From contig NZ_FZNQ01000009.1 of the NCBI RefSeq assembly GCF_900188065.1, positions 62,001 to 126,000 of the forward strand: a DNA stretch of 64,000 nucleotides. The letters run 5' to 3'. Shown here piece after piece: positions 4,894 to 40,200 of this stretch (the first letter of the stretch is position 1; the number at the start of each line of letters is the position of its first letter). The notes under the pieces were generated by a model that saw only the letters and a program-made list of their open reading frames with translations, did not search any database and was not told the origin of the DNA. This DNA comes from Halorubrum vacuolatum (GTDB lineage Archaea > Halobacteriota > Halobacteria > Halobacteriales > Haloferacaceae). Made by a program: the position numbers and the translations under genes.

Positions 4894-5208
4894 TCACACG
4901 TGCTGTCCCCAGAGCCCGCGGCCTTTCGTCACCTCGACGTCGCCCATCACGCGCGTTTGACACGAGAGGCGGACGTCGTGGCTCGGATGGTGCGGTGGGA
5001 ACCAGAGCCGTGCCTTCTCCTTTTTGCCCGGCTCGCTCACCTCGCCTTCAACCTTGACCGCACAGGTCCCACAGGACCCCATTCCGCGGCAGTTGAGCTG
5101 TTCCGATCGGCCATTATAAACAGAGAGCCCCGCCTTCCGGAGCACATCGCGCAGCACGGCACCCTCCTCACACTCGATCTCCTCGCCCTCGTAGTAGACG
5201 GTCGGCAT
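4894..5208 (-). CDS. 2Fe-2S ferredoxin
   Basis: This 104-aa plant-type ferredoxin domain has ligands in CRGMGSCGTC (a C-x5-C-x2-C arrangement near residues 43-51) plus a fourth Cys in LSCQT near 83. It is shorter than the classic haloarchaeal ferredoxin, which carries an extra acidic N-terminal domain, so it is a distinct small ferredoxin serving as an electron carrier in the cytoplasm. The start at 5208 is chosen over an upstream in-frame ATG at 5223. The TATA-like CTATAATG at about 5236-5243 is then spaced correctly for a leaderless message. Confidence 0.87.
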   Translation of the reverse strand: MPTVYYEGEEIECEEGAVLRDVLRKAGLSVYNGRSEQLNCRGMGSCGTCAVKVEGEVSEPGKKEKARLWFPPHHPSHDVRLSCQTRVMGDVEVTKGRGLWGQHV

Positions 5209-5347
5209 GTAACGACCGATCATATGTGACCGAGCATTATAGCTACTGGTGTCGGGACGATCCCACCGCGCCGACGTCGGTAACCGTACGCCGAGCGTCC
5301 GACGCCGACGGGTCGTTTTTTACGTCAGGACGCCGGAGGTGGTGATA

Positions 5348-6472
5348 ATGGGACTCAGGTGTCTGCTCGGGCACGATTTCAACGAACCCGAGGTGGAACG
5401 TGAACGCGAGGAGGACGGCAACGAGGTCGTCACCACCGTCCGGGAGGTGAAGACCTGCACACGATGCGGCGAGACACAGATCGTGAGCGAGAACACGGAG
5501 GTGACAACCATGGAGCGGCTCACCGAGGCGGCGACGTCCGCGCCGACCCCGGAGGAACCGGCCGAGCCCGAAGGTGGCGTCCATCCGGGCGGCGTCGGAG
5601 CCGCGGAGATCGACGAGGAGCCATATGAGCCGCCCGTCGACGGCGACGATGCGGTGATCATCGACGCGGAGGACGACGGCCCGGAATCGACCACGGCAGG
5701 GGCGTCGACCGACAGCGTGGAGCCGGCAGCCGACATGGAGGGAACCGCCGTGGACGGCGAGGAGGTCGCCGAAAAGACGGACGACGTGGACGTCGACGCC
5801 GAGGAACCGGACGGCGTGGTCGACGACGATGCGGAGTTCATCGAGTCGGGCCCGGGTGAGGCGGAGTTGGGACCGGACACGGCGGAGGGGCCGGCGGACT
5901 GGCCGGATCCCGGCACCGATCCGGACGGGAGCGAGGACGTGCCCGACGACGGCGAGATACTCGATGACGACGCCGGCGGCTCCTCGCCGGACCGCGAGCG
6001 GGGCGCCTGGCCGGAGCTGGATCAGGAGGAGAAAGCCGATCACGAACCGACACCGTGGCCCGACCAGCGGGGGGAAGACGAGGGGTGGAGCGCGACGGTC
6101 GACGACGGGGACGACGCGGGGCCGGGCGTCGAGTTCGGGGGCGGGCTCACGCCGGAAGCCACCGTGGACGGCGCGGACGTGGACGAGGACGTCGAGTTCA
6201 TCGACGCCCCCGAAACGTCGGCGTCGGCCGGGGACAAGGCGACGAGTGGGGGGATCGGAACGGAGACCGACGATGCCGCCGATGGCGACGTGGTGGGAAG
6301 CGGGATCGCCCGTGAGGATCCCCCAAGCCTTCAAACGTCGGCCGATGACATCGACATGGAGTACTACTGTCCGGCGTGTGAGATGACATGGGACGCCGCC
6401 GGCAACTCGATGCGCGCCGGCGACATCTGTCCGGAGTGTAAACGCGGCTACGTCAACGAGCGACCGCGCTAG
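5348..6472 (+). CDS. Acidic protein with terminal zinc-binding motifs (haloarchaeal hypothetical)
   Basis: This 374-aa protein has three parts. An N-terminal domain of about 55 residues starts GLRCLLGHDF and contains a CTRC zinc knuckle. Then comes about 280 residues of low-complexity acidic linker rich in Asp, Glu and Gly. The C-terminal zinc ribbon has two CxxC pairs (CPAC and CPEC). The ends suggest a metal-stabilised binding module pair joined by a disordered tether. From memory it resembles the DUF7093 family, unverified. The function is unknown. The start at ATG 5348 is preferred because an AT-rich TTTTTTAC element at 5315-5322 sits about 28 nt upstream. Confidence 0.7.
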   Translation: MGLRCLLGHDFNEPEVEREREEDGNEVVTTVREVKTCTRCGETQIVSENTEVTTMERLTEAATSAPTPEEPAEPEGGVHPGGVGAAEIDEEPYEPPVDGDDAVIIDAEDDGPESTTAGASTDSVEPAADMEGTAVDGEEVAEKTDDVDVDAEEPDGVVDDDAEFIESGPGEAELGPDTAEGPADWPDPGTDPDGSEDVPDDGEILDDDAGGSSPDRERGAWPELDQEEKADHEPTPWPDQRGEDEGWSATVDDGDDAGPGVEFGGGLTPEATVDGADVDEDVEFIDAPETSASAGDKATSGGIGTETDDAADGDVVGSGIAREDPPSLQTSADDIDMEYYCPACEMTWDAAGNSMRAGDICPECKRGYVNERPR

Positions 6473-6568
6473 ATCGGGCCGATCGACGCCGGCCGGATAG
6501 CCGCCGATCGATCCGTGTGGACGGCCGTGACGAAAGGGGTTTACCCCACCCTGTCAAACGGACCCGAC

Positions 6569-6952
6569 ATGAAGGAGTACAAGATGCGCCGCGGCGAGCA
6601 TCTGGAGGACCGAATGCCGGACCTGAAAGGCTCGATAGAGGAGTACTTCGGCGAGGTGACCGGCACCGAGGAGTGGAACGGTCATGAGCTCTACGTCGTC
6701 GAGGAGCCGAAAAACCCCGTCTTCGAGCGCATCGTCGCGGGCGCGGCGAGCTATAGCGGCAAGAAGGACAAACTCGCCGTCCACTTCGAGGAGCGACCCG
6801 CCGAGGAGCTCATCGCCGAGGGCAAGGTCGACGCGGCCGCCGACGCCGTCGACGTCAAGAACGCCTTCCTGTTGGAGGCGACCGGCCGCGATGCGAAGTC
6901 GCGCCGCGATTCGCTGAAACGCGAAGTCGAGGACGACGCGCCCGATTACTGA
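6569..6952 (+). CDS. DUF5611-like conserved haloarchaeal protein
   Basis: This 127-aa soluble protein begins MKEYKMRRGEHLEDR and continues with an alternating strand/helix pattern (GHELYVVEEPKNPVFERIV, KLAVHFEERPAEELIAEG). I recall the family as DUF5611, a haloarchaeal family with no known function. The start at 6569 follows a GTTTACC element at about 6540 that fits a leaderless promoter. No neighbouring gene gives a functional hint; the helicase downstream is convergent. Confidence 0.68.
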   Translation: MKEYKMRRGEHLEDRMPDLKGSIEEYFGEVTGTEEWNGHELYVVEEPKNPVFERIVAGAASYSGKKDKLAVHFEERPAEELIAEGKVDAAADAVDVKNAFLLEATGRDAKSRRDSLKREVEDDAPDY

Positions 6953-7002
6953 TCCGGCTCGTCTCGTCATCGACCGAGTATCGGCGTATCGACGGCGACG
7001 GA

Positions 7003-9054
7003 TCAGTCTTGCTCACGCAACTCGAGGTCGGCGACGATCCCGTACGGATCACGGCCCTGTCGGACCAACTCGAGGATCCGGAACGCCTCATCGGGTGCGA
7101 GAAAGTGTCGACAGATCGCCCGCCCGAGCGGCGTCGGCGAGAGCCCATCGATGAACGACCACTCCAGGAGCTTGCCGACCGCGTGGGTGGTCGGCACCTC
7201 CCCGACCATCCGGTCGTTGAGCCGCTTGGCGCCCGACCCGGCGACGACGACGTTCGCGAGCGTCTCCTCGACCGCCGCCGTCTCGTCATACCGCGGGGTG
7301 ACGTCCTCCATCTCGCCTTTGAGGAGCGTGAACGCGACCTCGTCTTCGGTACGATCCATCGAGTTGTGATAGACCCCGTCGGGCTCGACGAGGAGATAGA
7401 CCCGTCCGCGGTCGTGATAGTCGGGGCGACCCGCTCGTCCGAGCATCTGGGAGAACTCCTGGACCGACAGCCACTCGATCCCCATCGCCAGCGAGTCGAA
7501 GATCACCTGTGAGGCGGGGAAGTCGACCCCGGCGGCGAGCGCGGCCGTCGTGACCACCGCCGAGAGATCCTGGTTGCCGAAGCGTCGTTCGACCTGCTTG
7601 CGGCGGCCATAATCGAGGCCAGCGTGATACGGCGCGGAGTCGTATCGGAGCTTCCGGCTGATCTCGTGGCATCGCCGCCGGGAGTTCGTGAAGATGATCG
7701 TCTGGCCGCGGTAGCCCTTCGAGGATTTCGTGTCGAACTCGCGTTTCACGAGGGTATCGGCGATCCGCGCCTTCTCACGGCCGTCCGCGAAGGTTACGTG
7801 TCGCTCGATGGGAACGGGTCGCTCCTCGAATTCGATGAGCGTCGCTCGAAGCCTCTCGGCAAGCCATTCGGGATTGCCGACGGTCGCCGAGAGGTAGACG
7901 AACTGGATCCCGCCGTGTTCCCCGCGGTCGGCAAAGTGCTCCTCGCCGTAGTGTTTCAGCCGGGAGATGAGCCCGTCGAGACGATGGCCCCGCTCGCCCT
8001 CTTTGAGCGTATGCACCTCGTCGATAACGACCGTCCCGATCTCGCCGAGGTCCTTGCCCGTCCGGAGGGCGTGGTCGATTCCCTCATACGTGCCGACGAT
8101 GACGTCCGCGCTCGGGTCGAACCGGTTCCCGTCGTCGGTGATCCGCGAGGAGCCGACGCGAATGGAGACGTCGAGGAGGTCGCCGTAGCGGTCCTCGAAA
8201 TCCTCGTGTTTCTGGTTGGCGAGCGCGACGAGCGGCACCAAAAAGAGCAGTTTGCCCTCCCCACGGAGCGCGCGGTCGATCCCGGTGAGCTCGCCGACGA
8301 GCGTCTTGCCGGTCGCCGTCGCGCTCACCACGAGCTGGTCGTCGCCGTCGAGCAACCCGTTGCGGACCGCGAGGCTCTGGACGGGTAACAGCTCCTCGAA
8401 GCGGCCTTCGAGGTGGGCGGCGAGATCCGGGTGAAGGTCGAGGTCCGCGGTACGGACCGGCGTCACGTCGTCGACGTTCGCGGAGACCTCGTCATATTTC
8501 GTCAGGTCCGGGTCGAGTCCGCCCGAGAGCAGGTTGATGATCCGATCGAGGTCGCGTGAGTCGTACAACAGCTCCTCCAAGCGCTCCTCTGCGGCCCCGG
8601 TGAACGAGCCCGCATACGAGAGTTCACGCTCCAGTTCCCGACGGGCGCAATCGCGACAGATGTGTTCACCGTTGTGTTCGATCGCCGTGTCGGCCGTGAT
8701 CGGCCCGTATCGGCCGGCGTTCGAGCAGCGGCGACACGTGCGGACGGTGATCGCTTCCAATTGGTAGCCGTCGAGCATCGCCGTGAGCCGCTCACGGGCG
8801 GTCGGGGAGGTCTGTTGGGAGATCCGGATCCGGTCGGCGGCCCGCGCGAGGTCGACAAACTCGTCGGGCGGACGTGGGTGTTCCTCACCATCCCGGGTAA
8901 CGCGGAACTTCCCCGGTCGCGGCCCCGCCGACGTCTCCTTCAATTCGAGACGGCCCTGGAGAACACGGCTCCCTTCACGGGTGACGACGACGGTGTAGTC
9001 GCTGCGTGCCTCGTGAAGAAACAGCGTCTCGACCTCGGCCAACTGCTGTGACAC
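7003..9054 (-). CDS. Ski2-like DEAD/DEAH-box helicase with N-terminal zinc-finger extension
   Basis: This is a 683-aa superfamily 2 helicase. Residues 1-230 form an extension holding a zinc site (CRRC near 107-110 and CRDC near 133-136). Then come Walker A ATATGKT (245-251), motif II DEVH (345-348), motif III SAT (389-391) and motif VI QMLGRAGRPDY in the C-terminal RecA domain, in the Ski2/Hel308 style. A C-terminal helical region follows. I recall a haloarchaeal family of this architecture carrying a DUF5814 domain, unverified. It probably unwinds nucleic acid in repair or RNA processing. The start codon is GTG at 9054, with a GATATACC element about 27 nt upstream. Confidence 0.88.
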   Translation of the reverse strand: MSQQLAEVETLFLHEARSDYTVVVTREGSRVLQGRLELKETSAGPRPGKFRVTRDGEEHPRPPDEFVDLARAADRIRISQQTSPTARERLTAMLDGYQLEAITVRTCRRCSNAGRYGPITADTAIEHNGEHICRDCARRELERELSYAGSFTGAAEERLEELLYDSRDLDRIINLLSGGLDPDLTKYDEVSANVDDVTPVRTADLDLHPDLAAHLEGRFEELLPVQSLAVRNGLLDGDDQLVVSATATGKTLVGELTGIDRALRGEGKLLFLVPLVALANQKHEDFEDRYGDLLDVSIRVGSSRITDDGNRFDPSADVIVGTYEGIDHALRTGKDLGEIGTVVIDEVHTLKEGERGHRLDGLISRLKHYGEEHFADRGEHGGIQFVYLSATVGNPEWLAERLRATLIEFEERPVPIERHVTFADGREKARIADTLVKREFDTKSSKGYRGQTIIFTNSRRRCHEISRKLRYDSAPYHAGLDYGRRKQVERRFGNQDLSAVVTTAALAAGVDFPASQVIFDSLAMGIEWLSVQEFSQMLGRAGRPDYHDRGRVYLLVEPDGVYHNSMDRTEDEVAFTLLKGEMEDVTPRYDETAAVEETLANVVVAGSGAKRLNDRMVGEVPTTHAVGKLLEWSFIDGLSPTPLGRAICRHFLAPDEAFRILELVRQGRDPYGIVADLELREQD

Positions 9055-13738: not shown

Positions 13739-13788
13739 CCCCACCCTACTCGCTCACGGCTTTCGCCGTTCGCTCCTTGAGGGTGGGG
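13739..13788 (-). ncRNA. Predicted right-end hairpin of the TnpB guide RNA (omega/reRNA)
   Basis: In minus orientation the tnpB stop codon (TAG, 13748-13746) lies inside a strong stem formed by CCCCACCCT and AGGGTGGGG with a nested ACGGC/GCCGT stem. In characterised TnpB systems the guide RNA is made from the 3' end of tnpB and the right end, and it terminates in a guide copied from flanking DNA. By analogy the guide here would start at about 13730 and read into the promoter of the adjacent secreted-protein gene. This is inferred from structure and position only. Confidence 0.5.
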
Positions 13789-14975
13789 CTTCCTGTTTCC
13801 ACGACGCGCTTTGCAGATACCGAGGTATCCACAGGGAGCGCAGTCTCCACAGGCGTTGATTCGGAGTATCCCACTCCTAGTTTCGAGAGTCCGCGAGAAA
13901 GAATATTCCACGCCGCATTTGCATCCCTGTCCGCCTCAAACCCACACGAACGACACGAGTGTTCGCGCACCCACAGCGGTTTGTCCGTCGAAACGCCGCA
14001 CGCCGCGCACTCTTTGGTCGTCCCTCTCGGGTTGACCGCGACGAAGTGCGTCCCTTCTCGCTCACACTTGTATTCGAGCAACGAGAGGAACGTTCCCCAC
14101 GCTGCTCCTGCGCGGTTCCGCGAGTTCCCCGGGAGCTCGACCAACCCCTTCGCGTCGAGGTCTTCGACTGCTACGAGGTCGTACTCCCGAGCGTAGTAGT
14201 TCGAGAGCTTGTGGAGGAAGTCGCGGCGCTTTCGCTTGAGGTCAGCATGACGCTCGGCCACGACGCGGCGCTGTTTCTCCCAATTCGCGGAACCGTGTTC
14301 TTTCCGCGAGAGATCGCGTTGTGCGCGTTCGAGCCGTTCTCGTTCGTCGCTGAAGTCGGGGCTTTCGATGGCGTACCCACCGGTGTCGTGAGCGTACTTG
14401 AGAATCCCTACGTCGATACCAACGACCTTCTCGGGCGTGTCTGGTTTTTCCGGCGTGTCTTCCTCCACGTCGACCCCAAACGTGGCGAACCACTCGCCCG
14501 TGGATTCCCGTTTGACCGTGACCTGTTTGATCGTCGCGTTCTCGGGAATGTCTCGGTGGAGGTGGATCGAGATTTCACCGATCTTGCTCAACCACAGGAC
14601 AGGCCGACCACTCGTATTCTTGAGTTTGAAGCCGGACTGGTTGTAGGTGAGCGACCGATACTCCCGAGGCGGTTTCCACTTGAGCATCCCCACGGCGCGT
14701 CCGTTCTCCTTCTGTGCTTTGAGTGTAGAGAGGTTGTCGTAGACGCGCTTGACGACCATCTGCAACACTTTCGAGTGAACATCTCCGAGGTCATCCCACC
14801 ACGTCTTGAGATCGGGGAGTTGGCCCTGCACCTCGTAGCGGGCGGGAATGTCGTCTGCCTCGTTGAGCAGGTAGAGGACGTGGTTGTAGAGTTGCCTACA
14901 AGTATCGACGTGGTGCAGAAGCGTCTCGGTGAGGGCTTCTGGCGGGTCGAGTCGATACTTGTAGTTGTATTGCAT
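13746..14975 (-). CDS. tnpB: RNA-guided endonuclease TnpB
   Basis: This 409-aa protein has an intact RuvC-like nuclease: Asp188 in VGIDVG, Glu271 in VAVEDLDAKG and Asp351 in DRDANAAWN. A zinc finger is formed by C323, C326, C341 and C344 (CAAC ... CRSC). The N-terminal region holds the helical/OTF-like domain (TCRQLYNHVLYLL, KWKPPREYRSLTY). TnpB cleaves DNA under direction of a right-end-derived RNA and favours retention of its element. All catalytic residues are present, so it is probably active. It follows the DUF2080 gene by 3 nt. Composition is slightly less GC-rich than its neighbours, consistent with mobility. Confidence 0.92.
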   Translation of the reverse strand: MQYNYKYRLDPPEALTETLLHHVDTCRQLYNHVLYLLNEADDIPARYEVQGQLPDLKTWWDDLGDVHSKVLQMVVKRVYDNLSTLKAQKENGRAVGMLKWKPPREYRSLTYNQSGFKLKNTSGRPVLWLSKIGEISIHLHRDIPENATIKQVTVKRESTGEWFATFGVDVEEDTPEKPDTPEKVVGIDVGILKYAHDTGGYAIESPDFSDERERLERAQRDLSRKEHGSANWEKQRRVVAERHADLKRKRRDFLHKLSNYYAREYDLVAVEDLDAKGLVELPGNSRNRAGAAWGTFLSLLEYKCEREGTHFVAVNPRGTTKECAACGVSTDKPLWVREHSCRSCGFEADRDANAAWNILSRGLSKLGVGYSESTPVETALPVDTSVSAKRVVETGSPTLKERTAKAVSE

Positions 14976-19515: not shown

Positions 19516-19825
19516 AATCACTCACCGATTGATTGTGATTCTATATAAATGTTCTGTATATGGTTCAACGATCGGCCTACCGGGACCCGATCATACTGGT
19601 CCATGTAGACAAATACCAACCATTTAAATATCCAAACTGAACAACCGGAGTCGCGGGATCTCGATCCGGTATGAGAGTTTCTCCAAGTGAGAATTAGGCG
19701 GCTAAGCAAACAAAATCCCCCGGCTATCACTCAAAGGCCACAGCGCTCCTGCCGCCGCGTATCCATCGGCTACCTATTAGTGTTGCTGTCACATATATTA
19801 TCAGCTGAAAATGCTTTTGGCGAAT

Positions 19826-19847
19826 GTTTATACTCCAGTATTATAAT
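19826..19847 (+). promoter_or_regulatory. Promoter of the tubulin-like operon
   Basis: Two AT-rich elements, GTTTATACT (19826-19834) and ATTATAAT (19840-19847), lie upstream of the ATG at 19863. Either could position a leaderless start. The whole divergent gap 19516-19862 is unusually AT-rich for this genome and includes a further AT run at 19621-19632. No gene is recognisable in it. Confidence 0.5.
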
Positions 19848-19862
19848 AGATTGCTTGTCAAG

Positions 19863-22800
19863 ATGAATCTTCCAGGTAGAATATTCGCGGTCGGGGGCGC
19901 AGGAAAGGCGATAACGTATGAACTTCTCGCGGCCGAGTGGGTTCAAGAGGCCGTCCTTCGTCCACGTCCAAATCCTGAATCTCTCGAAGTGAGAATTATC
20001 GACACTGCAGAAGAGGAGGAGAACCGAGACCTCGAGCGGATACAGGAACTCAGACAGCAGATACAGCAAACAAAAGACCGTCTTCGACAAGAATACGACG
20101 GGCGGCCGGGGGAAATAAATATTAAATATTTGCCACTAACGAAGAACGTCCAGTTGCACGATCAGAACGACCTCATCGGTGAGTCAGTCGTTCCACGGAT
20201 CGCTTCCGGAATCGGAATGGATGAGGAGAATTGGTGGCTTCAGCCGGAATTTATCAATGAAAATCTCGATTTCGCTACCGGCGTCGTCCGGAAACGAGGA
20301 CTCGGAAAGGGGTTGTATTACAAGGCGTACGCGGAGGACGATGATGTCCGAACGGAGATCGACCTTCCTGATAGCGGAAAAGTCGCCGTAATAGCTGGCC
20401 TCGGGGGCGGTTCGGGATCTGGAATCTTTATTGACCTCGTTAGCCATTTAAAACGCACACAGCGAACAGCGGAAATAACGCTTTTTGCCGTATTGCCGAA
20501 CGACGACGAGGGTGACGCTGAGAACGCGAACGCACACGCAGCGCTTTCAGAATTGGAGTATCTCAGCCTACAAAACGAGAACTTGTTCAAAGACCGGGTG
20601 TTAATTCCGATTGATCCAACCGGATTCGGTGGGAAAAAAGCTAATATTCTACAGAGTTCGGATGCGCTCATTGAGTTCGATCGGGCGGCGATCTATCTGA
20701 TCGCGACGTACTACAACATGATGGATATGGAGGACCCCTTCGCGGATACGCCCTCCTATGCGCCATTCGTTATCGGGATCCCGCAAGTCCTCCGGTACAA
20801 CGTTGATGCGATCCAAGACGCCAAAGCCGTCACTAAGGAGATCCTCAACGCGAAACAGGACGCACTGGAAGCTGAAGAAGATGTGTACTCAGGCGTAGAT
20901 CGGTTTCTTTCGAGGGAGTGGGGTCCCGATGACATGAGTGGGGAACTACATGATTCCGACCGAACCGATCTCGAAACACGGCTCAGGAATGTCAAATCAC
21001 TTCTCGAGCTCGATCTATTCACCGAGTTGGAGTATGAATCCGTCTCGATCTACCGGGAGATCATCTCGGAGGCTGAAGCCGAAAGCGAGGAGATAACCGA
21101 ACAGATAGAGGTGATCGGTGGATCAATCCGAGCGGGGACGGCGGAAGTGAGTACGGACGGTGAACAGTTCGTCGATAGCATCGATAAACAGTTGGGGGAC
21201 GTGATCAGCGAGGAACTCAGCCGGCTCGCGCATCGCAAGGACCTACTTATTCGCCTTCGAGCGATCGAGGACAACCGGGTCGAAAGCACGATCAGCTACC
21301 TTCTCGCGCTGGAAGACGAGGGGATTAACGCGGGGGTCCGTCTTAATCAGTTGGAAGCGAAATTGGATGAGGCTGCGGACCGCCGCGACCGGCTCCAGTC
21401 GGATTACGACGAGATTGTCGACGAACTCGAACGACGGCGGCGCGAACAACAGGATGAGGTCAATCGACGTGTACAGACGTGGGAACGAACGGTCCGCCCG
21501 CTGTATGAGCGATACGACGAGTGCCGATCGATCCCGATCGACGGAATGGTCGGGGATCTCGAGGTCGCCATAGAGAACTTCTCACGGGAGGTTGAAAACG
21601 CCGAGACGGTGGATCAACTCGAGGCCACGGACGAGATGCAGGTCCGTGATGCGCTGACGGCGCTTTCGGAGGAGCTCGATGCCGTCGGGATCAGCATCAA
21701 CGAGACCGAGCGGGCGATAAACGCCTCGCTCGTGGATCTCACGGACGCAAAGAAGGCATTCCTCCAGATGAACGAGGACGAAAGCACCCTAGAGTCGCTG
21801 TTGCCATGGGAGACGTCGAGCGAGGAGGATCGAAAGCAGGCGCAACGAACCTACAAAATGAAACAGAGCCAGCTCGACGACAACGAGGTGTTCAGCCTCT
21901 CCCGGCTGGGCGATACGTTGTCCATCGAGCCGCAGTTCTCGACAGGCAGTCTGCGACGAACCGTCGATGACGAGGCCGATCGAAAACGGCGGGAGATCGT
22001 CGAGCAGACCCGCGAGGAACTCGAGGAGGACCACGGAACGGCCGTGGACGATCTCGGCCGTGACCTCGATGCCGGCGTGGACTTTACCGAGTTGAAAAGA
22101 CGGTTCGAGGACCTCGTCATGGAGGAAGCCGTCGAGACCGACGACGTTGAAAGACGTCGTGAGGAGCTGGAATCGGAGCTTGCAGACGCCGAGCGAAAGA
22201 CCGCTCTATATGAGACGACTGTCGGGATGTTCGAAGAGCTCAACCGACCGCGAGACCTCTTCACCTCCGCACAGGATCGATATCGACAGCTCAGGGAAAG
22301 CCATAACGAAAACAGAGAGACAACCGTCTCAACGGAGACCGAAGAATACAGTTACGTCAAGACGATCAAACCACATGACATCCTTCAACTCCGTGACGAC
22401 GCGGACATCGCCGAAAGCAAGCTCTTCGACGATCAGACTGAACGACAACGGCTTCGGGGATCCCTCGAGGAGTTAGCGAAGAACGCACACAATCCGAAAT
22501 ATACAGGGATCCGAAAACGACGGATCAGCAACGATCGTGCCCGATACAACGAGATGAACGTGGTCGTCGGCGTGATGAGCCGGGCGATAGACCAGATCGG
22601 TGATGTGGCCGATCTGAAGCCCGTGTTCCAGGGCGCATATAACCTCGGGGCGGGGAGCGAGAACTTCGCCTCGTTCCCGGTCGAGGCCGGAAACAGTTGG
22701 GACATCGGACTCGGAATCTTCATCGACGGCATCTTCCTCGACAATCTCCGTGCAGAGGTGGAGCCGGACGGCTACCAAACGGGATACCGCTCCCGCGAGC

Positions 22801-23018
22801 AGTCGGACGACATGGATATCCTCGTTCATCACACCTACGGCCTCGAAAATGGTGAGTACGTCCGGCGAAACGAGGTATTAAACCTTGAGAACCCGAACGA
22901 CATCGAGTTCTTTTTGCGGGATGAAGCGGAGATACGTGAGGACTTGCTCAACGACTACTGTGAGGTAGTCACGTTTAATTCGGCAAGCGTAGAGGCCGAC
23001 GGAGGGGGCGATCAGTAG
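19863..23018 (+). CDS. Giant tubulin/FtsZ-like GTPase with coiled coils
   Basis: This 1051-aa protein starts with IFAVGGAGKAI (residues 7-17). It then carries GLGGGSGSGIFIDLVSHL (179-196), matching the tubulin/FtsZ signature loop (G)GGTGTG with Ser for Thr, followed by a Rossmann-like continuation (ITLFAVLPNDD). About 440-560 and 700-850 are long charged coiled coils. The last 200 residues return to an ordered domain (YNEMNVVVGVMSRAI, FASFPVEAGNSWDIGLGIFIDG). It resembles large tubulin-like proteins of the Tubulin_2 type rather than FtsZ or CetZ. No transmembrane helix is seen. It leads a four-gene operon: its TAG stop directly abuts the ATG of the membrane GTPase. The function is unknown; a filament or scaffold role is inferred. 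Confidence 0.75.
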   Translation: MNLPGRIFAVGGAGKAITYELLAAEWVQEAVLRPRPNPESLEVRIIDTAEEEENRDLERIQELRQQIQQTKDRLRQEYDGRPGEINIKYLPLTKNVQLHDQNDLIGESVVPRIASGIGMDEENWWLQPEFINENLDFATGVVRKRGLGKGLYYKAYAEDDDVRTEIDLPDSGKVAVIAGLGGGSGSGIFIDLVSHLKRTQRTAEITLFAVLPNDDEGDAENANAHAALSELEYLSLQNENLFKDRVLIPIDPTGFGGKKANILQSSDALIEFDRAAIYLIATYYNMMDMEDPFADTPSYAPFVIGIPQVLRYNVDAIQDAKAVTKEILNAKQDALEAEEDVYSGVDRFLSREWGPDDMSGELHDSDRTDLETRLRNVKSLLELDLFTELEYESVSIYREIISEAEAESEEITEQIEVIGGSIRAGTAEVSTDGEQFVDSIDKQLGDVISEELSRLAHRKDLLIRLRAIEDNRVESTISYLLALEDEGINAGVRLNQLEAKLDEAADRRDRLQSDYDEIVDELERRRREQQDEVNRRVQTWERTVRPLYERYDECRSIPIDGMVGDLEVAIENFSREVENAETVDQLEATDEMQVRDALTALSEELDAVGISINETERAINASLVDLTDAKKAFLQMNEDESTLESLLPWETSSEEDRKQAQRTYKMKQSQLDDNEVFSLSRLGDTLSIEPQFSTGSLRRTVDDEADRKRREIVEQTREELEEDHGTAVDDLGRDLDAGVDFTELKRRFEDLVMEEAVETDDVERRREELESELADAERKTALYETTVGMFEELNRPRDLFTSAQDRYRQLRESHNENRETTVSTETEEYSYVKTIKPHDILQLRDDADIAESKLFDDQTERQRLRGSLEELAKNAHNPKYTGIRKRRISNDRARYNEMNVVVGVMSRAIDQIGDVADLKPVFQGAYNLGAGSENFASFPVEAGNSWDIGLGIFIDGIFLDNLRAEVEPDGYQTGYRSREQSDDMDILVHHTYGLENGEYVRRNEVLNLENPNDIEFFLRDEAEIREDLLNDYCEVVTFNSASVEADGGGDQ

Positions 23019-24458
23019 ATGTCGATAGGGACGTTCCTCGAGGAGAACGGCGAGAAGGTGCTTCTCGTCGTGTATTTTGTGGTGATGATCGTCGTCGCCG
23101 GACCCCTGTTTTTGGTGCTCGGTGAAGCATGGGAAGCATCCGATGTGTTTCGACCGTTAATTTTGTCTTTGAACCCGCTCATCGGGGTGAACCTGGAGCA
23201 GTTCTCCTCAGCAATGTTCGGCGGATATCTCGGACTACTGGTACTGTTAACGCTTGATCCGAAAAAGCGTATACAGGGATTGCTGTTGTGGTTGGGGACT
23301 GTTTCCGCACTGATCGGCCTCCTTTCTATCGGGCTGTTCATCCCGAACATCGACTTTACTGCCAACGTTCTCTGGATCCTGTCTGGCTTCGTGGTTGGGG
23401 CGATCGTCGGAGGGGGGCGGCAGTTATTGGAGGTCCGAACGGCAAGCGCGCTCGAATTCCGGCGGTCGGCGACGCTATTGTTTTATCTGATAAGCGTAGT
23501 CGTCGCTGTCGGATTGATCGAGTACCATGTGAACCTTCCGCAGGTTATCGAGGTCGCCAGCAACGAGGTCCACGTACAGGCCGAAAATCCGAGCGTGGAT
23601 GTCGACTGGAACGGCATCGGGAGAAACACACTCATGGCAGGGGTGTTCGTCGTGACGCTTCGTCGGTTCGTGACGTACGACGCCTCCGAGAGTTTCTTTA
23701 TCCTTGGTCCACCGGGATCCGGCAAGTCGCTGTTCCTCGTGGGAAAGTACCTCGAAGCGCTCGATGACGCCGTCGGTCGGGACACCGACACGCCGTTGAA
23801 CCCCAGCGGCGATCTTATGGAGTTGGTGAGTGCGCTCGATGCGGCCTCGAAGGACACCGGCTGGAAGTTGGATTCAACGGGTGCAACCGACATCGAGGAC
23901 CTCCGGTTTCGGTTTATAAGCGGTCGGGTGTTCCCGAAGAACATCGAACTCTCAAGTCTCGATTATGCCGGTGAATACCTCGAGGAACTGCCGACCGCAC
24001 TGATGAGCGCCGACGAGGAGATCGACAACTCGACGGTTCGGCTCCTCGCACAACGGGTGCGAGACGCGAACACGCTGGTTCTGGTTATCGATGTCGAACG
24101 GTTCCACAACAACGAGCCGTTGGATATCGAACCCTACTTCGACATCCTCAACGCGGCCTCGAACAAGGACGTGCTGCTCGTGGCGACGAAGTGTGACATC
24201 CTCGCCGAGGGGTTCCGCGACAAGCAGGCGCTCGAAGCGTACCAGTACTTTGATGAGTTCAAGGAGTTCGTCAACGATACCCTCATTCAAAACAGCCAAG
24301 CCGTTCGAACCCTCGTCCAGGACACCTCAGGCTCGGAGATTCATCCGGTATACTATCAAACCACGACGAACGAGAACGGTGAGCGGGTACCGATGCGGAA
24401 CCAGAATGGGAACGTCCAGACCGTCGGGTTCGACGAACTCCTGCAGAAGATGGGGTGA
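23019..24458 (+). CDS. Membrane-embedded P-loop GTPase
   Basis: This 479-aa protein has about five transmembrane helices in the first 215 residues (roughly 14-35, 66-79, 86-107, 114-131, 151-168, perhaps 202-214). A cytoplasmic P-loop domain follows: Walker A GPPGSGKS (230-237), a G3-like DYAGE (315-319), VLVIDVERF (354-362) and a G4-like TKCD (390-393). The DxxGE and TKxD motifs point to the Ras-like TRAFAC/double-GTPase group rather than AAA+ ATPases. It starts at the base following the tubulin-like gene's stop and ends 6 nt before the next gene, so the four proteins are made together. The nucleotide-dependent partner is probably the tubulin-like protein, by inference. Confidence 0.75.
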   Translation: MSIGTFLEENGEKVLLVVYFVVMIVVAGPLFLVLGEAWEASDVFRPLILSLNPLIGVNLEQFSSAMFGGYLGLLVLLTLDPKKRIQGLLLWLGTVSALIGLLSIGLFIPNIDFTANVLWILSGFVVGAIVGGGRQLLEVRTASALEFRRSATLLFYLISVVVAVGLIEYHVNLPQVIEVASNEVHVQAENPSVDVDWNGIGRNTLMAGVFVVTLRRFVTYDASESFFILGPPGSGKSLFLVGKYLEALDDAVGRDTDTPLNPSGDLMELVSALDAASKDTGWKLDSTGATDIEDLRFRFISGRVFPKNIELSSLDYAGEYLEELPTALMSADEEIDNSTVRLLAQRVRDANTLVLVIDVERFHNNEPLDIEPYFDILNAASNKDVLLVATKCDILAEGFRDKQALEAYQYFDEFKEFVNDTLIQNSQAVRTLVQDTSGSEIHPVYYQTTTNENGERVPMRNQNGNVQTVGFDELLQKMG

Positions 24459-24464
24459 ACACGG

Positions 24465-26393
24465 ATGTCAGCATTACGGATATACGATACGAAAGGAAAC
24501 GAGTATGCGCCGAGCGGTGGGACTGAACGAACGAACGAGCGAATAAAGGAGCTGTTTTACGCCGGCGTGCGTTTTTCGGTGGAGTCCGTCGGGGAGACGC
24601 GGATAATTGCGTTCTTTCGCGCACGCGAGACGCGAGACGCGAGAAGCGAGCAGTTCTACGCGGAGTACACCGCGGGAAGCGTCTCGAACTTACTCAGCGA
24701 GTTCGAGTCAGCCCTACGCCAGCGCGTGGAGTCCAGATGGGGATACACCATCGATGAACGTTCAAAAGAGATGGAGGTGTTCCGTGCGGTCATCCGTAAC
24801 GAAAAGACGGTCCCTGGAAGCAAGCAGGAACGCCGGATACTGCGTGAAATCATCAAATCAGGGCCGATCGCAAACATCGGGGTTCGTGATGCAAACGCCG
24901 CGGTAGGGCTCATGCAGGAGGTGCTTGACACCGGTTCGCGGTTCGCGATCACCGACTCCGAGAATACGGACGCCCTCTCGGATTACGACGTCGCGTTTGT
25001 GACGGGGAGCCGGAAAGAGATAGAACCGCTCGGGGAGACGGCGGATCGGTGGGAACAGACCGAAGAATCGTTACGTGAGCGGTTTATCAAGGAGGAGATC
25101 GACGAGATCGAAAGGGCGGTACAGTCGTTATCGCGCGATTACGGGCTCTCAAGCGGAGAGATACGAAATCGGGTAACGAGGCGTGTGCCGGCGCTGAAAC
25201 AACCGACTGTGAGCGGATCCTCCTCGTCGCTCGGAAGTTCCTCAAGCCTCAAAAAAAAGGACGGTCTCCTCCCGTCCGGGAAGGTCGGAATGTACGTCGC
25301 CATCGTTGCGCTCGCTTTAGCCGTAATCATCGGCGGGGTGTACGCCGCAGGGATGCTCGGAATGGGTCCGCTCGCCGATGGCGGTGGTGATACCATCGAG
25401 GGAACCGTATTTGACGATGAGGGCGAAGCGATATCCGATGCCGAAATACAGCTGTTGCATCAGAACAACAGCATACGCAACTCGACGGAGACTGATAACG
25501 ACGGTGAGTTCGCCTTCGTCGATCTCGAATCCGGCGGCGAATACAGATTGAGCGTTACCGCCGACGATCACAATTTCGCGGAGAAGAGCGTTACGGCCGG
25601 TGAGACCGTCGAGCTCACGCCGATCGGGGACGATGAGAGCGTGACGGGTACCGTCGTCGACGCTGTCGAGGGCGAGGCGATCAGCGAGGCAACCGTCGAC
25701 CTGTCCGACGAGGAGGGGGAGCATCTCGACAACGCGACGACCGATGAGGAAGGTGCGTTCTCCTTCCCCATCGAGGACCAAGATGCCACCTACACCCTAG
25801 AAGCGAGCGCCGACGGCTACGACCCCGGAGGCGTCGAGGAGGTCACCACCGATGAATCAGAGACGATCGAACTCGAGGAGAGCACGACCGCGTTGGAGGG
25901 AACTGTTCGGGACAGTGACGACGGTGAGCCGATCGATGGAGCGACCATTACCGCCGAGGACGACGCGGGCGATACCCAAACCACGGAAACGGATGCTAAT
26001 GGCAACTACGAACTCGAACTCGAACGCGGGCAGTACGAGGTAACCACCGACGCCGACGGCTTCATGACCGATGAGGAGTCCGTGGTGGCCGATGAGGATG
26101 TCGTCGAACAGGACTTCGAACTCGACGCACAGGCGTCATGGAGGGGGACAGTAGTTGAGGAAGGAGATGAAAGTCAGACACTGAACGGTGCGGAGATCAC
26201 CTTACTAGTCAACGGTGAGACTGTCGCAGAGGAAACATCCGATGGCGACGGTGAATTCGAGTTCACAAACCTTGATCCTGTAGAGCACACGGTTGAAGTT
26301 AGAGAAAGAGCCGGTCACGAAGACAAAGACACCACGATCGAATTCGAACCCGGCCAGGAGCGTGAGGACAACATCGAGCTAACGCCGGATTAA
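24465..26393 (+). CDS. Single-pass membrane protein with unknown cytoplasmic domain and repeat ectodomain
   Basis: This is a 642-aa protein. Residues 1-245 form a soluble domain I do not recognise (FYAGVRFSVESVGETRIIAFFRARE, SNLLSEFESALRQRVESRWGY). A Ser/Lys-rich linker (250-266) and one transmembrane helix (about 274-299) follow. Residues 308-642 contain four tandem carboxypeptidase-regulatory-like beta-sandwich repeats, each with the pattern GTVxDxxxGExIxxAxVxL...DxxGxFxF...YxLxxxADGY. The repeats should lie outside the cell. The first repeat is nearly identical in DNA to that of the next gene. Position third in the operon suggests it belongs to one complex. Confidence 0.7.
   Translation: MSALRIYDTKGNEYAPSGGTERTNERIKELFYAGVRFSVESVGETRIIAFFRARETRDARSEQFYAEYTAGSVSNLLSEFESALRQRVESRWGYTIDERSKEMEVFRAVIRNEKTVPGSKQERRILREIIKSGPIANIGVRDANAAVGLMQEVLDTGSRFAITDSENTDALSDYDVAFVTGSRKEIEPLGETADRWEQTEESLRERFIKEEIDEIERAVQSLSRDYGLSSGEIRNRVTRRVPALKQPTVSGSSSSLGSSSSLKKKDGLLPSGKVGMYVAIVALALAVIIGGVYAAGMLGMGPLADGGGDTIEGTVFDDEGEAISDAEIQLLHQNNSIRNSTETDNDGEFAFVDLESGGEYRLSVTADDHNFAEKSVTAGETVELTPIGDDESVTGTVVDAVEGEAISEATVDLSDEEGEHLDNATTDEEGAFSFPIEDQDATYTLEASADGYDPGGVEEVTTDESETIELEESTTALEGTVRDSDDGEPIDGATITAEDDAGDTQTTETDANGNYELELERGQYEVTTDADGFMTDEESVVADEDVVEQDFELDAQASWRGTVVEEGDESQTLNGAEITLLVNGETVAEETSDGDGEFEFTNLDPVEHTVEVRERAGHEDKDTTIEFEPGQEREDNIELTPD
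25425..25607 (+). repeat. Direct repeat copy 1 (ectodomain coding block)
   Basis: This 183-nt block recurs at 27779-27961, offset 2354 nt, with two mismatches (about 99% identity). Flanking repeat domains are clearly more diverged. It encodes most of the first extracellular repeat domain of the third operon gene. Confidence 0.9.
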
Positions 26394-26398
26394 ATCGG

Positions 26399-28747
26399 AT
26401 GGACATTTCAGGCGAAACGCTCGACGGCACCGGGGCGACCGTCACAGTCCGTGAGGAGGTCGGGACCGGAGTCCACTGGCGAACTCATCGCGGGGTCACC
26501 GCCGCTGGCGACCCCGTCGCCGTCAGAACGCTCCTGGGGACCGTCCCGGAGTCGGCGTATGACCGTTTTGATTCGCTCTGTCGACAGTGGCGGACGATCG
26601 CGGGACGCCAATCGGTCAGATCGATCGTCGGTTGGGGCGTCGAACCAGAGCCGTGGGTCGCCGTCGAATATGCCGGCGACGAGATCGAACGCCTCGCGAA
26701 CGGCGAGACCGTCACCTCAGCCCAAGCTTGCGACGCTGCAACCAAACTCAGCTTAGGGGACGGTATCTGTGAGGCGATACGTACGTACGGACGCTACGGA
26801 TCGACGAGGACGCACCTCGCGGTGCACCCCGAATCGGTGACGTTTCGACGGGACGGTGACGAACCCATCCCGGTGGTCGGCGACTGGGGTGTGAGTCGGC
26901 TCGTCGAGGAGCCACCGGTGACCCCGTACACGGCCCCGGAACAGATCGACGGAAGCGACGCCGCGGTCACCGAACGGACGGACGTCTACCGGATCGGCGC
27001 GCTCATGTACACCCTCATAGCCGACGAGGAGCCCTTCGCCGACGTACGCGATGCCGCGCTTCCCGAGGCGATCGGCGACGGGATCCGCTCCACCTCGGAC
27101 GGACTCGACACGCTCCCCGAACGCGTTCGGGATCCGATCGCCCGGGCGATGGCCCCGGACCCGGGTGACCGTCACGCGTCGGTATACGAGCTACAGGCGG
27201 CGCTTTCGGCGAGCGCGCCACGAACACCGGCCGATGAGCGACGGGTGCAGACGTTGGGAACGATCGATGAACCGCCGCAGGAGGGCCCGGACGGAATCGA
27301 TGACCGTGATACCGCTGCCCAAGCGGCCATGACGACGACATCGGACGGCTCGGAAGCGGCGGACGAGACGACGGCAGCAAACCACGACGACGGCGAGACG
27401 GTCGAAGGGAGCGAGGATACGGAAGCGTCGGAGGAGGTATGGGAGGATACCGACGGAGCGTCACCGGAGGAGACGAGGGAGGACACTGCGGGCTCAGACG
27501 GCGAATCGATGGCCTCGGATAGTGACACCACCGACGCTGGTGGGGGGAGGTCAGCGTCGGACGACGAACCGACCGGGTCGTCATCGGAAGGGATGACGAA
27601 CACGCGGCGATGGGCACCGGCGGTGACCTTCCTGCTGATGATGACCGTTCTCGTGTCGGTCGTCGCGTACGGCGCGGTCGCGCTCGGGATGCTCCCGCCG
27701 GTCGGCGATATCATGGGCACGGGTGAGACCGCCGACAGCATCGATGGGGTCGTCCTCGATGCGGAGGGTGAGGATGCGGAAGCGATATCCGATGCCGAAA
27801 TACAGCTGTTGGATCAGAACAACAGCATACGCAACTCGACGGAGACTAATAACGACGGTGAGTTCGCCTTCGTCGATCTCGAATCCGGCGGCGAATACAG
27901 ATTGAGCGTTACCGCCGACGATCACAATTTCGCGGAGAAGAGCGTTACGGCCGGTGAGACCGGCCTCGAACTCACGCCGATCGCCGATGATGAGGGCGTA
28001 ACCGGTACCGTCGTCGACGCTGCCGATGGCGAGGTTATCAGCGAGGCGACCGTCGATCTGTTCGACGAGGAGGGGGAGCATCTCGATAGCACGACGACCG
28101 ATGAGGAGGGTGCGTTCTCCTTCCTCGTCGAGAACCGGGAAGCCATGTATATATTGGAGGCGGACGCCGACGGCTACGACCCCGGAACCGTCGAGGAGGT
28201 CATCACCGATGAATCAGTGACGATTGAACTCGAGGAGAGCACCACGGTCGTTGAAGGGACTGTTCGGGACAATAGCGACGGTGAGCCGATCGGTGGGGCG
28301 ACCATCACCGCTGAGGACGACGCGGGCAACATCCAAACCACGGAGACGGATGTCGACGGGAACTACCAACTCGAACTCGTACATGGTCAGTACGAGTTCA
28401 CCGTCGATGCCGACGGCTTCGCCACACGGACCGAATCCGTACCCGTCGAGGGCGACACCGTAGTCCAAGACTTCGAACTCGACGCACAGGCGTCGTGGTC
28501 GGGGTCGGTATTTGAGGCAGGAAATGAGGATCAGATACTGAACGGTGCAGAGATCACTTTGTCAGTTGACGACGACGTTGTAGATGAGGAAATATCAGAT
28601 ACCAACGGTGAGTTCACATTCACGAATCTCGACCCGGTCGAGCACACGGCTGAAGTCAGAAGAGCCGGTTCCGTAGACAAAGTCAAGATGATCGAATTCG
28701 AACCCGGCGAGGAGCGTCATGAGGATATTAGATTAACACCGGAATAG
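26399..28747 (+). CDS. Membrane-anchored pseudokinase with repeat ectodomain
   Basis: This is a 782-aa protein. Residues 15-270 look like a Ser/Thr kinase fold with degraded catalytic motifs. The beta-3 VAxK lysine is Arg43 (DPVAVR), the HRDLKPxN loop reads HLAVHPES (139-146, Ala for Asp, His for Lys, Ser for Asn), and DFG is DWG (162-164). APE (179-181) and the TERTDVYRIGALMYTLI helix are kept. An acidic disordered linker covers about 280-400, a transmembrane helix 407-430, and then four carboxypeptidase-regulatory-like repeats homologous to the preceding protein. The sequence suggests an inside-out signalling receptor without phosphotransfer. It is the last gene of the operon; the next gene is convergent. 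Confidence 0.72.
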   Translation: MDISGETLDGTGATVTVREEVGTGVHWRTHRGVTAAGDPVAVRTLLGTVPESAYDRFDSLCRQWRTIAGRQSVRSIVGWGVEPEPWVAVEYAGDEIERLANGETVTSAQACDAATKLSLGDGICEAIRTYGRYGSTRTHLAVHPESVTFRRDGDEPIPVVGDWGVSRLVEEPPVTPYTAPEQIDGSDAAVTERTDVYRIGALMYTLIADEEPFADVRDAALPEAIGDGIRSTSDGLDTLPERVRDPIARAMAPDPGDRHASVYELQAALSASAPRTPADERRVQTLGTIDEPPQEGPDGIDDRDTAAQAAMTTTSDGSEAADETTAANHDDGETVEGSEDTEASEEVWEDTDGASPEETREDTAGSDGESMASDSDTTDAGGGRSASDDEPTGSSSEGMTNTRRWAPAVTFLLMMTVLVSVVAYGAVALGMLPPVGDIMGTGETADSIDGVVLDAEGEDAEAISDAEIQLLDQNNSIRNSTETNNDGEFAFVDLESGGEYRLSVTADDHNFAEKSVTAGETGLELTPIADDEGVTGTVVDAADGEVISEATVDLFDEEGEHLDSTTTDEEGAFSFLVENREAMYILEADADGYDPGTVEEVITDESVTIELEESTTVVEGTVRDNSDGEPIGGATITAEDDAGNIQTTETDVDGNYQLELVHGQYEFTVDADGFATRTESVPVEGDTVVQDFELDAQASWSGSVFEAGNEDQILNGAEITLSVDDDVVDEEISDTNGEFTFTNLDPVEHTAEVRRAGSVDKVKMIEFEPGEERHEDIRLTPE
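27779..27961 (+). repeat. Direct repeat copy 2 (ectodomain coding block)
   Basis: Partner of the block at 25425-25607. The two differences change the HQNN/DQNN and TDND/TNND residues. This points to recent duplication or gene conversion between the two neighbouring receptor-like genes. Confidence 0.9.
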
Positions 28748-28818
28748 CATTCAAAAGGGCGTACATTCGTCTGGCGCAGTCGACGTGAAACAAGATAGGC
28801 CCACGCCGACAACGACGA

Positions 28819-37201: not shown

Positions 37202-40200
37202 ATGGCTCAGGCCGGGAATCAGGACCTCACGGAGCGGTTCATTCAGTTCTATCGGAACTACTACCGCGACGAGATCGGCGCGCTCGCCCAGCGCTACCCG
37301 AACGAGCAGCGCTCGCTGTACGTCGATTACGACGACCTCTATCAGTTCGACCGGGACCTCGCGGAGGACTTTCAGTCCCAACCCGACCAGCTGCGCGAGT
37401 ACGCCGAGGAGGCGCTTCGGCTCTACGACCTCCCCGCCGACGTCAGCCTCGGCCGCGCACACGTCCGCATCGAGAACCTTCCCGAAAGCATCGATATCCG
37501 CGGCATCCGCGTCCACGACGACCATATCGGTAAGCTCGTCTCCATCAGAGGGATCGTCCGCAAGGCGACCGACGTCCGCCCGAAGGTGACCGAGGCCGCC
37601 TTCGAGTGTCAACGCTGCGGGACGATGACCTACATCCCGCAAGCCGACGGTGGCTTTCAGGAGCCCCACGAGTGTCAAGGCTGTGAGCGACAGGGCCCCT
37701 TCCGGGTGAACTTCGATCAGTCGGAGTTCATCGACTCACAAAAGCTCCGCATTCAGGAGTCGCCGGAGGGGCTCCGCGGCGGCGAGACCCCCCAATCGAT
37801 CGACGTCGACATCGAGGACGACATCACCGGCCACGTGAGCCCCGGCGACCACGTCACGGCCGTCGGCGTCCTCCACATCGAACAGCTCGAACAGGGCAAC
37901 GAGAAGTCGGCCATCTTCGACCTCTACATGGACGGCGTCTCCATCGCCATCGAGGACGAGGAGTTCGAGGACATGGACATCACAGCCGAGGACCAGCGCG
38001 AGATCATCGAACTCTCCGAGCGCGACGACATCTACGAGGCCATGATCGGCTCCATCGCGCCCGCCATCTACGGCTACGAGGAGGAGAAGCTCGCGATGAT
38101 CCTCCAGCTCTTCTCGGGCGTCACCAAACACCTCCCGGACGGCTCACGGATCCGCGGGGATCTGCATATGCTCCTGATCGGGGATCCGGGAACCGGAAAA
38201 TGTGTCGATGGAGACACCAGCGTTGTTCTCGGGGATGGACGAGCAGTCGAGATACGGGAGCTGGTCGAAGCAAACCTCGACGATCCTAAACCGATCGACG
38301 ACGGCGTGTGGGATACGGTTGATTTCGAGGTTCCCGCCCTGCAGAAGGACGGAACGGTCGGGATGTCGCGTGCGACGAAAGTCTGGAAGCGAGAAGCACC
38401 CGAGACGATGTATCGGATCGAGACGGCATCCGGGAGCGAGCTTACTGTGACGCCGTCACATCCGCTGTTCGTCCAGCACGACGGGCGTTTTGAGCCGACC
38501 GTCGCGGAGCAGTTAGCTGAAGGCGAATTTATCGCGACACCAGACCGACTTGAAACAGCGGTGGACGATACGTTGGATGTGGATTTCCGCCGATCGCAGT
38601 CGTGGAACGCTGCCCGGCTTGATCTCCCCGAAGAGTGGACACCGGAGCTTGCGCGACTTCTCGGGTATATCGTCGCTGAGGGCTATGCCGAGGCGCGTGA
38701 TGATGGAACGGGGTTCGTCTCGATAACCGACAATGACGAGGCCGTGTTATCCGATGCTCGGTCTGCATTTGAGACGCTTGGGCTCCGAACATCGACCCGT
38801 AAATCACGCGAGAAGAAGACGGCCCGTGAGCTATTGTGCTCCGCCAGCGAGTTTGTTAGATTCCTTGAAAACCTCGATGAAGCGCTTTTAAAGGGCTCCG
38901 CAAAGCAACGAATTCCGACCGAAATTTGCCGTGCATCACCACCGATCACGCGAGCATTTATCAAAGGATACGTCGAGGGTGAAGGTCACGTCTCGGCGAC
39001 ACAGCGGGAGATTACCGTTGCATCGATGAGCGAGCAGTTACTGAGGGACCTCCGTACGCTACTGCTTCAACATAGGATCACGACACAACTCCACGAACGG
39101 AAAAACGGAAGTCATAGGCTGCGCATCAGTGGTGCACAGTTCGATCGCTATGTGACTGAGATCGGATTCGTAACCGGTCGCAAACAACAGGCAGCTGAAG
39201 CGCATCTATCGACAGACCGGAATACGAATGTGGATGTCGTTCCCAACGTGGCACCGATCATTCGGCGGGTACGGGAGTCGCTTGGATTGACGCAATATGA
39301 CTGCGGGGTACCACGGAACACCTACCGGCACTACGAGTCAGGGACCAGAAATCCGAGCGTCGGGGCGCTTAAACGGATCGTAGAGGCATTCGAGAACGCG
39401 GCTACGAAGCGAACTGAGGATGCGAAAATAGGGAAGGCACGACCCGATGGTGGGAGGGTTGCAACCGACATCGCTGCACTCCGTCAATTAGCGGAAGGGG
39501 ACGTTAGATGGGATCGGATCGACACCATCGAACCTATCGCTCCCGAAGACGATTGGGTGTACGATCTTGAGGTTGAGGAAACGCACAACTACGTCTCGAA
39601 TGGCATCATCTCACACAACTCGCAAATGTTGTCATATATCAGACAAATAGCCCCTCGTTCCGTCTACACCTCCGGGAAGGGAAGTAGTTCCGCGGGGCTT
39701 ACGGCTGCGGCGGTACGCGATGACTTCGGCGACGGCCAACAGTGGACCCTGGAGGCCGGCGCGCTCGTGCTCGCTGATAAAGGGATCGCCGCTGTCGACG
39801 AGCTGGATAAGATGCGGTGTGTAACCGGCGAGACGCTTGTTCATCTCGGGGACGGACGAATCAGTCGCATTCGCGAGATCGCACGGGAGGCCGAGGAGGA
39901 CGGCCAGATCGAATCGCTTCCCAACGGACGAACCATCCGTGACGTCGACCTCGACGTGTGGTCTATGGCTCCGGACGGATCCCTCACGAGACGCTCTGTG
40001 ACCGCCGTCCACGAATACGCGTCTCCGGAGGAACTGACCGAGGTATCGCTTGAATCGGGAGAATCCGTGACTGCCACGGAGGATCACCCGTTCTTTGTCT
40101 TGGAGAACGGGACACGAAAGACAAAACCAGCAGGTGATCTCGAACCCGGAGATTGGACGTTCGTCCCCGATACGATCCCACGTCCGGCGAGAGACGGGGG

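Follow-up and report, generated by a model that had tools for sequence, protein, structure and literature searches.

The window, a stretch of 64,000 nucleotides from Halorubrum vacuolatum, contains four consecutive genes on the plus strand (Table 1). The sequence-only reading had placed them in one operon with gaps of 0, 6, and 5 nt, and this spacing was confirmed by the ORF coordinates. The first ORF may start at position 19824 or 19863. The start at 19863 was preferred, since relatives begin to align with the longer ORF only at about its residues 10-14.

Table 1. Coordinates of the genes, domains, and motifs of the operon, numbered from the first letter of the window.
Feature	Position	Strand	Description
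Inserted cassette	19551..28815	.	Whole operon and its own upstream region; flanks continuous with relatives to ~19550 and from ~28816
Gene 1, FtsZl1/Tubulin_2, 1051 aa	19863..23018	+	N-terminal tubulin-like GTPase domain, central coiled coils, C-terminal alpha/beta domain
T4 loop GGGSGSG, tubulin/FtsZ signature	20403..20423	+	Residues 181-183, 185, and 187 invariant in 30 homologues
Gene 2, polytopic membrane GTPase, 479 aa	23019..24458	+	4-5 predicted TM helices, then TRAFAC-like P-loop domain
P-loop GPPGSGKS	23706..23729	+	G230, S234, G235, and K236 invariant (alignment A2)
Walker B/G3 DYAGE	23961..23975	+	D315, A317, G318, and E319 invariant in A2
G4 motif TKCD	24186..24197	+	K391 and D393 invariant in A2
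Gene 3, single-pass membrane protein	24465..26393	+	Cytoplasmic T1N, one TM, four beta-sandwich repeats outside
T1N cytoplasmic domain	24465..25283	+	Present in type I gene 3 proteins and also in several type II loci; without a Pfam family
Gene 3 ectodomain	25341..26390	+	Four transthyretin/CarboxypepD_reg-like repeats; fast divergence
96-100% DNA-identical tract, gene 3 vs gene 4	25443..25622	+	Sliding nucleotide identity
Gene 4, single-pass pseudokinase receptor	26399..28747	+	Ectodomain matched to that of gene 3; accessory
Gene 4 pseudokinase domain	26516..27223	+	VAIK Lys absent, HRD Asp replaced by Ala (16 kinase-like neighbours aligned)
Gene 4 ectodomain, four repeats	27686..28744	+	Pfam CarboxypepD_reg

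The gene 1 protein matched the Pfam family Tubulin_2 (PF13809) with 38.1 bits against a cut-off of 27. Its glycine loop reads GLGGGSGSG, and a T3-like segment, RKRGLGK, was also conserved in the 30-sequence alignment of the family. A model predicted from this alignment had a mean pLDDT of 84. Among the best 50 PDB matches listed by Foldseek, all belonged to the tubulin/FtsZ/CetZ superfamily with a probability of 1.00; Haloferax CetZ2 was first, and gamma-tubulin, OdinTubulin, and FtsZ were also among the leaders. Profile matches in the PDB were to FtsZ/TubZ/RepX. In the model, long helices extended over approximately residues 314-816, and the C-terminal part was mixed alpha/beta and not purely helical. 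Pfam gave Tubulin_2 and a sub-threshold match to the Tubulin GTPase domain alone, and neither FtsZ_C nor Tubulin_C was detected. These results indicate that gene 1, as modelled, has a tubulin-type fold. They agree with the tubulin signature and coiled coils claimed from the sequence alone; a match to some other fold had been named as the finding that would overturn that claim. Gene 1 thus shares the GTPase fold of CetZ, FtsZ, and TubZ, but differs from these proteins in its length of 1051 aa, in its coiled-coil region, in having no detected Tubulin_C/FtsZ_C domain, and in always being accompanied by the membrane GTPase family.

The T6-H7 and T7 elements of FtsZ assembly were not recognised in the gene 1 family, and polymerisation is therefore putative. 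Gene 1 might instead be a GTP-dependent scaffold or regulator that does not polymerise. In the main text of Makarova and Koonin (2010, PMC2875224), the elements of the FtsZ filament were not identified in the FtsZl1 family, and the large coiled-coil region of gene 1 would also suit a scaffold. However, the same text states that all characterised members of the superfamily formed filaments, and the glycine loop and the T3-like segment are conserved in gene 1. We consider a role as a scaffold unlikely, at roughly one chance in four.

The gene 2 protein had been read as a polytopic P-loop GTPase with DxxGE and TKxD motifs, and its comparison with 20 homologues (alignment A2, 28-80% identity) bore this out. 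The GxxxxGK[S/T], DxxGE, and TKxD motifs were all intact, and the G-K, D-A/P-G-E, and K-D residues were invariant or nearly so in the alignment. The homologue from Methanohalobium has DYPGE at Walker B. Searches of PDB sequences gave weak G-alpha matches only. The DO-GTPase Pfam models gave 13.1 and 11.8 bits, below the cut-off of 27, and DO-GTPase2 was matched weakly by 15 of the 20 relatives (best E 0.0014). In the type II loci, which are more distant, a member of the GTPase family without a P-loop was often found alongside an intact one, suggesting an active/inactive pair. A P-loop-less relative of 457-491 aa adjoins the tubulin gene in eight loci (L062, L063, L064, L065, L066, L067, L071, and L154), and most of these also have an intact GTPase. 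From their sequences, the P-loop-less relatives are possible pseudo-GTPase partners.

Bacterial DO-GTPase/GAP1-N2 conflict systems, described by Kaur et al. (2020), combine tubulin and beta-sandwich repeats with a GTPase whose Walker B glutamate is conserved. The present operon is similar in its membrane-linked GTPase with the Walker B glutamate (E319, invariant here), its tubulin plus coiled-coil protein, and its TM proteins with beta-sandwich repeats, and genes of the GTPase family are also paired at type II loci in haloarchaea. The repeats are FNIII in the bacterial systems, whereas they are CarboxypepD_reg/transthyretin-like here. In a search with the GAP1-M model (PF20014), and C. glutamicum as the positive control, none of 22 carrier genomes had a match. 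Since GAP1-M was absent and the GTPase fell under the curated cut-off, membership in the DO-GTPase/GAP1 systems was rejected.

Genes 3 and 4 encode the two single-pass proteins of the sequence-only reading, which had assigned them a common four-repeat ectodomain and one of them a pseudokinase. Pfam found four CarboxypepD_reg repeats in each, each protein has one TM helix, and the TM and ectodomain regions of the two are 72% identical; the loss of the VAIK and HRD residues in gene 4 supports the pseudokinase. The cytoplasmic domain of gene 3, designated T1N, was analysed with an alignment of 21 gene 3 homologues (A3). The A3 profile matched type I loci with E values of 1e-66 to 1e-116, four type II loci (L059, L062, L064, and L068) with 1e-20 to 2e-11, and Methanohalobium with 2.6e-31. 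T1N was not assigned to a known domain, as the 21 members had no convincing Pfam match and no notable PDB sequence match. The predicted T1N model (pLDDT 82) had no significant PDB match either; the best Foldseek E value was 0.095, and the scattered weak matches were longin/PAS-like. A longin-like topology is only a lead from this model. The cytoplasmic part of gene 3 was steady at about 224-362 aa, whereas the ectodomain ranged from 7 to 828 aa. Some gene 3 proteins (L043 and L054) have almost no ectodomain, which indicates that sensing of the outside cannot be universal in this family.

Gene 4 was found in four Halorubrum loci, including the present one, and most carriers do not have it. It is an accessory variant outside the conserved core. 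Instead of it, other carriers encode beta-propeller proteins that are exported by Tat, contain a TM helix, and carry a similarly degenerate kinase. Kinase-like domains are thus joined to differing outside sensors, and the outside module is therefore exchangeable. A beta-propeller pseudokinase partner was also sought in the present genome, and the search returned unlinked beta-propellers only, plus gene 4 through its kinase-like domain. In Halorientalis, a kinase-like neighbour of the tubulin gene (L048, 12353-14563, minus strand) retains HLDLKPDN, so the catalytic aspartate is not lost in all kinase-like neighbours.

We compared the ectodomains of genes 3 and 4 within and between genomes. In three related Halorubrum, the cytoplasmic parts of gene 3 were 78-91% identical, whereas the ectodomains were 45-55% identical. 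The cytoplasmic parts of gene 4 were 47-76% identical between genomes. The gene 3 and gene 4 ectodomains were mutual closest relatives in the present genome, H. alkaliphilum, and H. cibi (three of four genomes; support 100/100, 99/99, and 99/100), with H. aquaticum as the exception. The dS of the ectodomains was 0.33-0.46 within genomes versus 0.92-1.55 for orthologues between the same three genomes. In the window, the nearly identical tract shared by the two genes (Table 1) is likely a recent gene conversion. These comparisons indicate that the two ectodomains evolve in concert. Such a pattern would fit receptors that must recognise a common ligand or pair with one another, and gene conversion driven by the repeats without selection is an alternative cause.

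The within-genome pairing and the low within-genome dS could also mean that the system serves cell-cell or self recognition, with the gene 3 and gene 4 ectodomains binding one another, or a common partner, on neighbours of the same lineage. However, conversion between adjacent repeats can homogenise them without selection, H. aquaticum does not have the pattern, and most carriers lack gene 4. Recognition of this kind is improbable as the role of the operon.

The chromosomal site of the operon was compared with that of other Halorubrum. The operon lies between housekeeping genes. In eight other Halorubrum genomes, only about 0.3-0.8 kb separates the flanking cpn60 and KH-domain genes, and blastn against four of the empty sites showed that homology to the window ends at about 19550 and restarts at about 28816. 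The operon is therefore a clean insertion of about 9.3 kb at a site that is empty in eight other Halorubrum. Three of these eight (G171, G205, and G260) have their own copy elsewhere. The GC content of the operon was 58% (55% for gene 1) versus 64-66% for the flanks. Direct repeats around the insertion were uninformative, the longest common word being 10 bases. Relatives of the operon are present on four plasmids. A virus-borne origin was rejected, as no relative was found in IMG/VR viral contigs.

A survey of 292 haloarchaeal genomes was then used for distribution. The tubulin-like family was clearly present in 38 genomes. Many further matches were weak (E of about 1e-5 to 1e-4 over about 70 residues around the glycine loop, in ORFs of mostly about 400 aa), and these look like ordinary FtsZ/CetZ. 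The family of gene 2 was present in all 38 tubulin-positive genomes (Fisher p 6e-41) and T1N in 29 of them (p 9e-29), and every genome with T1N had the GTPase family. Seven of the 45 genomes with the GTPase family had no tubulin, and three genomes had a GTPase and T1N pair without an adjoining tubulin. Tubulin, GTPase, and T1N were contiguous, on one strand, and in the same order in 27 haloarchaeal loci, an arrangement far beyond chance; in L034 the GTPase was masked in ORF calling and was placed by a separate search. The same contiguous genes were found on plasmid pMETEV01 of the methanogen Methanohalobium evestigatum. Homologues that were never neighbours would have spoken against the sequence-only reading; in fact they adjoin. 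Co-occurrence in the same order, which it had proposed as a check for the four genes, held for genes 1-3, but not for the accessory gene 4. The distance matrices of genes 1, 2, and 3N were correlated (r = 0.95-0.97), which partly reflects shared host ancestry.

The present genome has a second gene 2 homologue with no tubulin (L158, G000 contig C18, 6459-15356), which adjoins an AAA+ ATPase (406 aa) and a single-TM protein of 406 aa of no known family; a beta-propeller/coiled-coil protein lies farther away. This locus and the GTPase and T1N pairs without an adjoining tubulin indicate that the GTPase is the constant part of the system, and that tubulin is a usual partner but dispensable in some relatives. 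The comparison narrows the archaeal system to a testable core of GTPase and T1N, usually with tubulin, and related loci are carried by cultivable species of Halorubrum, Haloferax, Haloarcula, and Halorhabdus.

The FtsZl1 family was defined from Huta_2050-2056 of Halorhabdus utahensis, a locus with the 1051-aa Huta_2051, other hypothetical genes, and three kinases (main text of PMC2875224). According to that text, archaeal FtsZl1 genes neighbour a diverged membrane GTPase and protein-kinase-like genes, and a vWA-domain protein occurs in the majority of the published operons. In our survey, L051 had the series kinase-like gene, tubulin, GTPase, gene 3 homologue, and kinase-like gene, and is probably the H. 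utahensis type locus. Its tubulin-like protein and adjoining membrane GTPase are 44% and 47% identical to those of the window, and gene 3 has the same position with kinase-like genes close by. The window copy differs in its four-repeat ectodomains, in its pseudokinase receptor with a duplicated ectodomain, and in having its own chromosomal site. Gene 1 has the traits of FtsZl1, namely PF13809 above the cut-off, a loop of the GGGTG(S/T)G type, and an extended coiled coil followed by a C-terminal domain, and a diverged membrane GTPase and a kinase-like gene adjoin it. Pfam found no vWA gene in the operon or in the ten surrounding proteins. Based on the match of L051 to the Huta_2050-2056 locus, sequence comparison identifies the four-gene operon as the Halorubrum version of the known archaeal FtsZl1 system.

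The tubulin-like family and the archaeal gene cluster were thus already described in 2010, and the earlier claim that no haloarchaeal system of this composition had been described does not stand, which rules out an undescribed system. Within the tubulin superfamily, few members have diverged as far as the FtsZl1/Tubulin_2 proteins, which are widespread and were described sixteen years ago; in the literature searched, we found no functional test or experiment on any member of the system. Four points are new in this study. T1N is a third core component (27 loci and a methanogen plasmid), which was not found described in the main text of PMC2875224. Tubulin never occurs without the GTPase family, whereas the GTPase family does occur without tubulin. 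The operon entered a site that is empty in related genomes. The ectodomains diverge fast between species and stay matched within a genome.

We propose, with a probability of about 0.5, that the operon belongs to the FtsZl1 system as an accessory unit that moves horizontally, and that it serves at the cell membrane as a receptor-gated GTP switch. Gene 3 would read a signal at the cell surface through its variable beta-sandwich ectodomain, and the gene 4 pseudokinase may be a co-receptor in the present strain. T1N would then act on the polytopic GTPase of gene 2, which forms the constant core; this putative contact is suggested by gene linkage and correlated divergence (r 0.95). GTP-bound gene 2 may recruit the giant tubulin-like protein and set its assembly, and through the coiled coils and C-terminal domain of gene 1, this assembly would produce a local response of the membrane or envelope. 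The direction from receptor to GTPase to tubulin, the polymerisation of gene 1, and the final membrane effect or biological output are presumed steps. The anatomy is best read as the earlier idea proposed, with a membrane-anchored machine that couples sensing outside the cell to a tubulin-like protein; overall, that idea is partly supported.

Alternatively, the operon may be a membrane-remodelling or vesicle machine for housekeeping or stress, with outside domains that serve only to attach it to the S-layer or envelope. Remodelling was proposed for FtsZl1 by Makarova and Koonin (2010, main text of PMC2875224), GTPase-driven vesiculation by ArvA is known in haloarchaea, and downstream of the cluster in Methanohalobium there is a gene with an S-layer domain. 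The ArvA-ArvB-ArvC operon is likewise a haloarchaeal operon around a GTPase with membrane action, but its GTPase is small and Arf-like and it has no tubulin or receptors. The ArvB (DUF2073) and ArvC (DUF2072) domains were not found by Pfam in the four operon proteins. The patchy distribution, the variable sites, the plasmids, and the rapid divergence of ectodomains that are nevertheless matched within a genome are also unusual for housekeeping. Remodelling is accordingly a minority reading, with odds of about three to one against it.

Because the operon is patchily distributed and mobile and its ectodomains evolve fast, a role in conflict or recognition is more likely than one in housekeeping remodelling. 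In a conflict or immunity role of the DO-GTPase style, the ectodomains would detect an invader or foreign surface, and the assembled tubulin would damage or isolate the membrane. This would be a purpose for the receptor-gated switch and not a separate mechanism. The composition and Walker B glutamate of the systems of Kaur et al. (2020), the nature of the operon as an accessory cassette, and its varying partners (tubulin missing in some relatives, and an AAA+ neighbour in the present genome) are consistent with it. However, the operon has no recognisable toxic effector, no effector or defence neighbour was found for it, PADLOC gave generic kinase models and weak coiled-coil matches and nothing more, and the absence of GAP1-M and the housekeeping flanks also argue against it. 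A conflict role is possible, though we would not expect it. A bolder version of the receptor-gated switch, which we hold only tentatively and as somewhat less probable still, is a mobile surface-surveillance system in which two self-matched, fast-evolving receptors gate the GTPase and thereby giant tubulin assembly, in immunity or self-recognition, with tubulin as an exchangeable effector. If true, it would be a prokaryotic pathway from receptor to cytoskeleton in immunity or self-recognition.

Several genes near these loci were also noted. On a Haloplanus rubicundus plasmid, the type II locus L154 has a downstream PQQ beta-propeller gene, and genes annotated as vWA, Hsp70, and GrpE lie immediately upstream of it. 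Near the type II tubulin locus L066, a gene at 5055-7019 (minus strand) encodes a Mrr-type restriction endonuclease domain and eight predicted TM helices. In the window, an IS605-type OrfB/TnpB-like gene with a Cas12f1-like TNB domain lies near the operon (13746-14975, minus strand), and an MCM helicase gene of 1814 aa (37202-42646, plus strand) is interrupted by one or more inteins, with two Intein_splicing and four LAGLIDADG_3 stretches.
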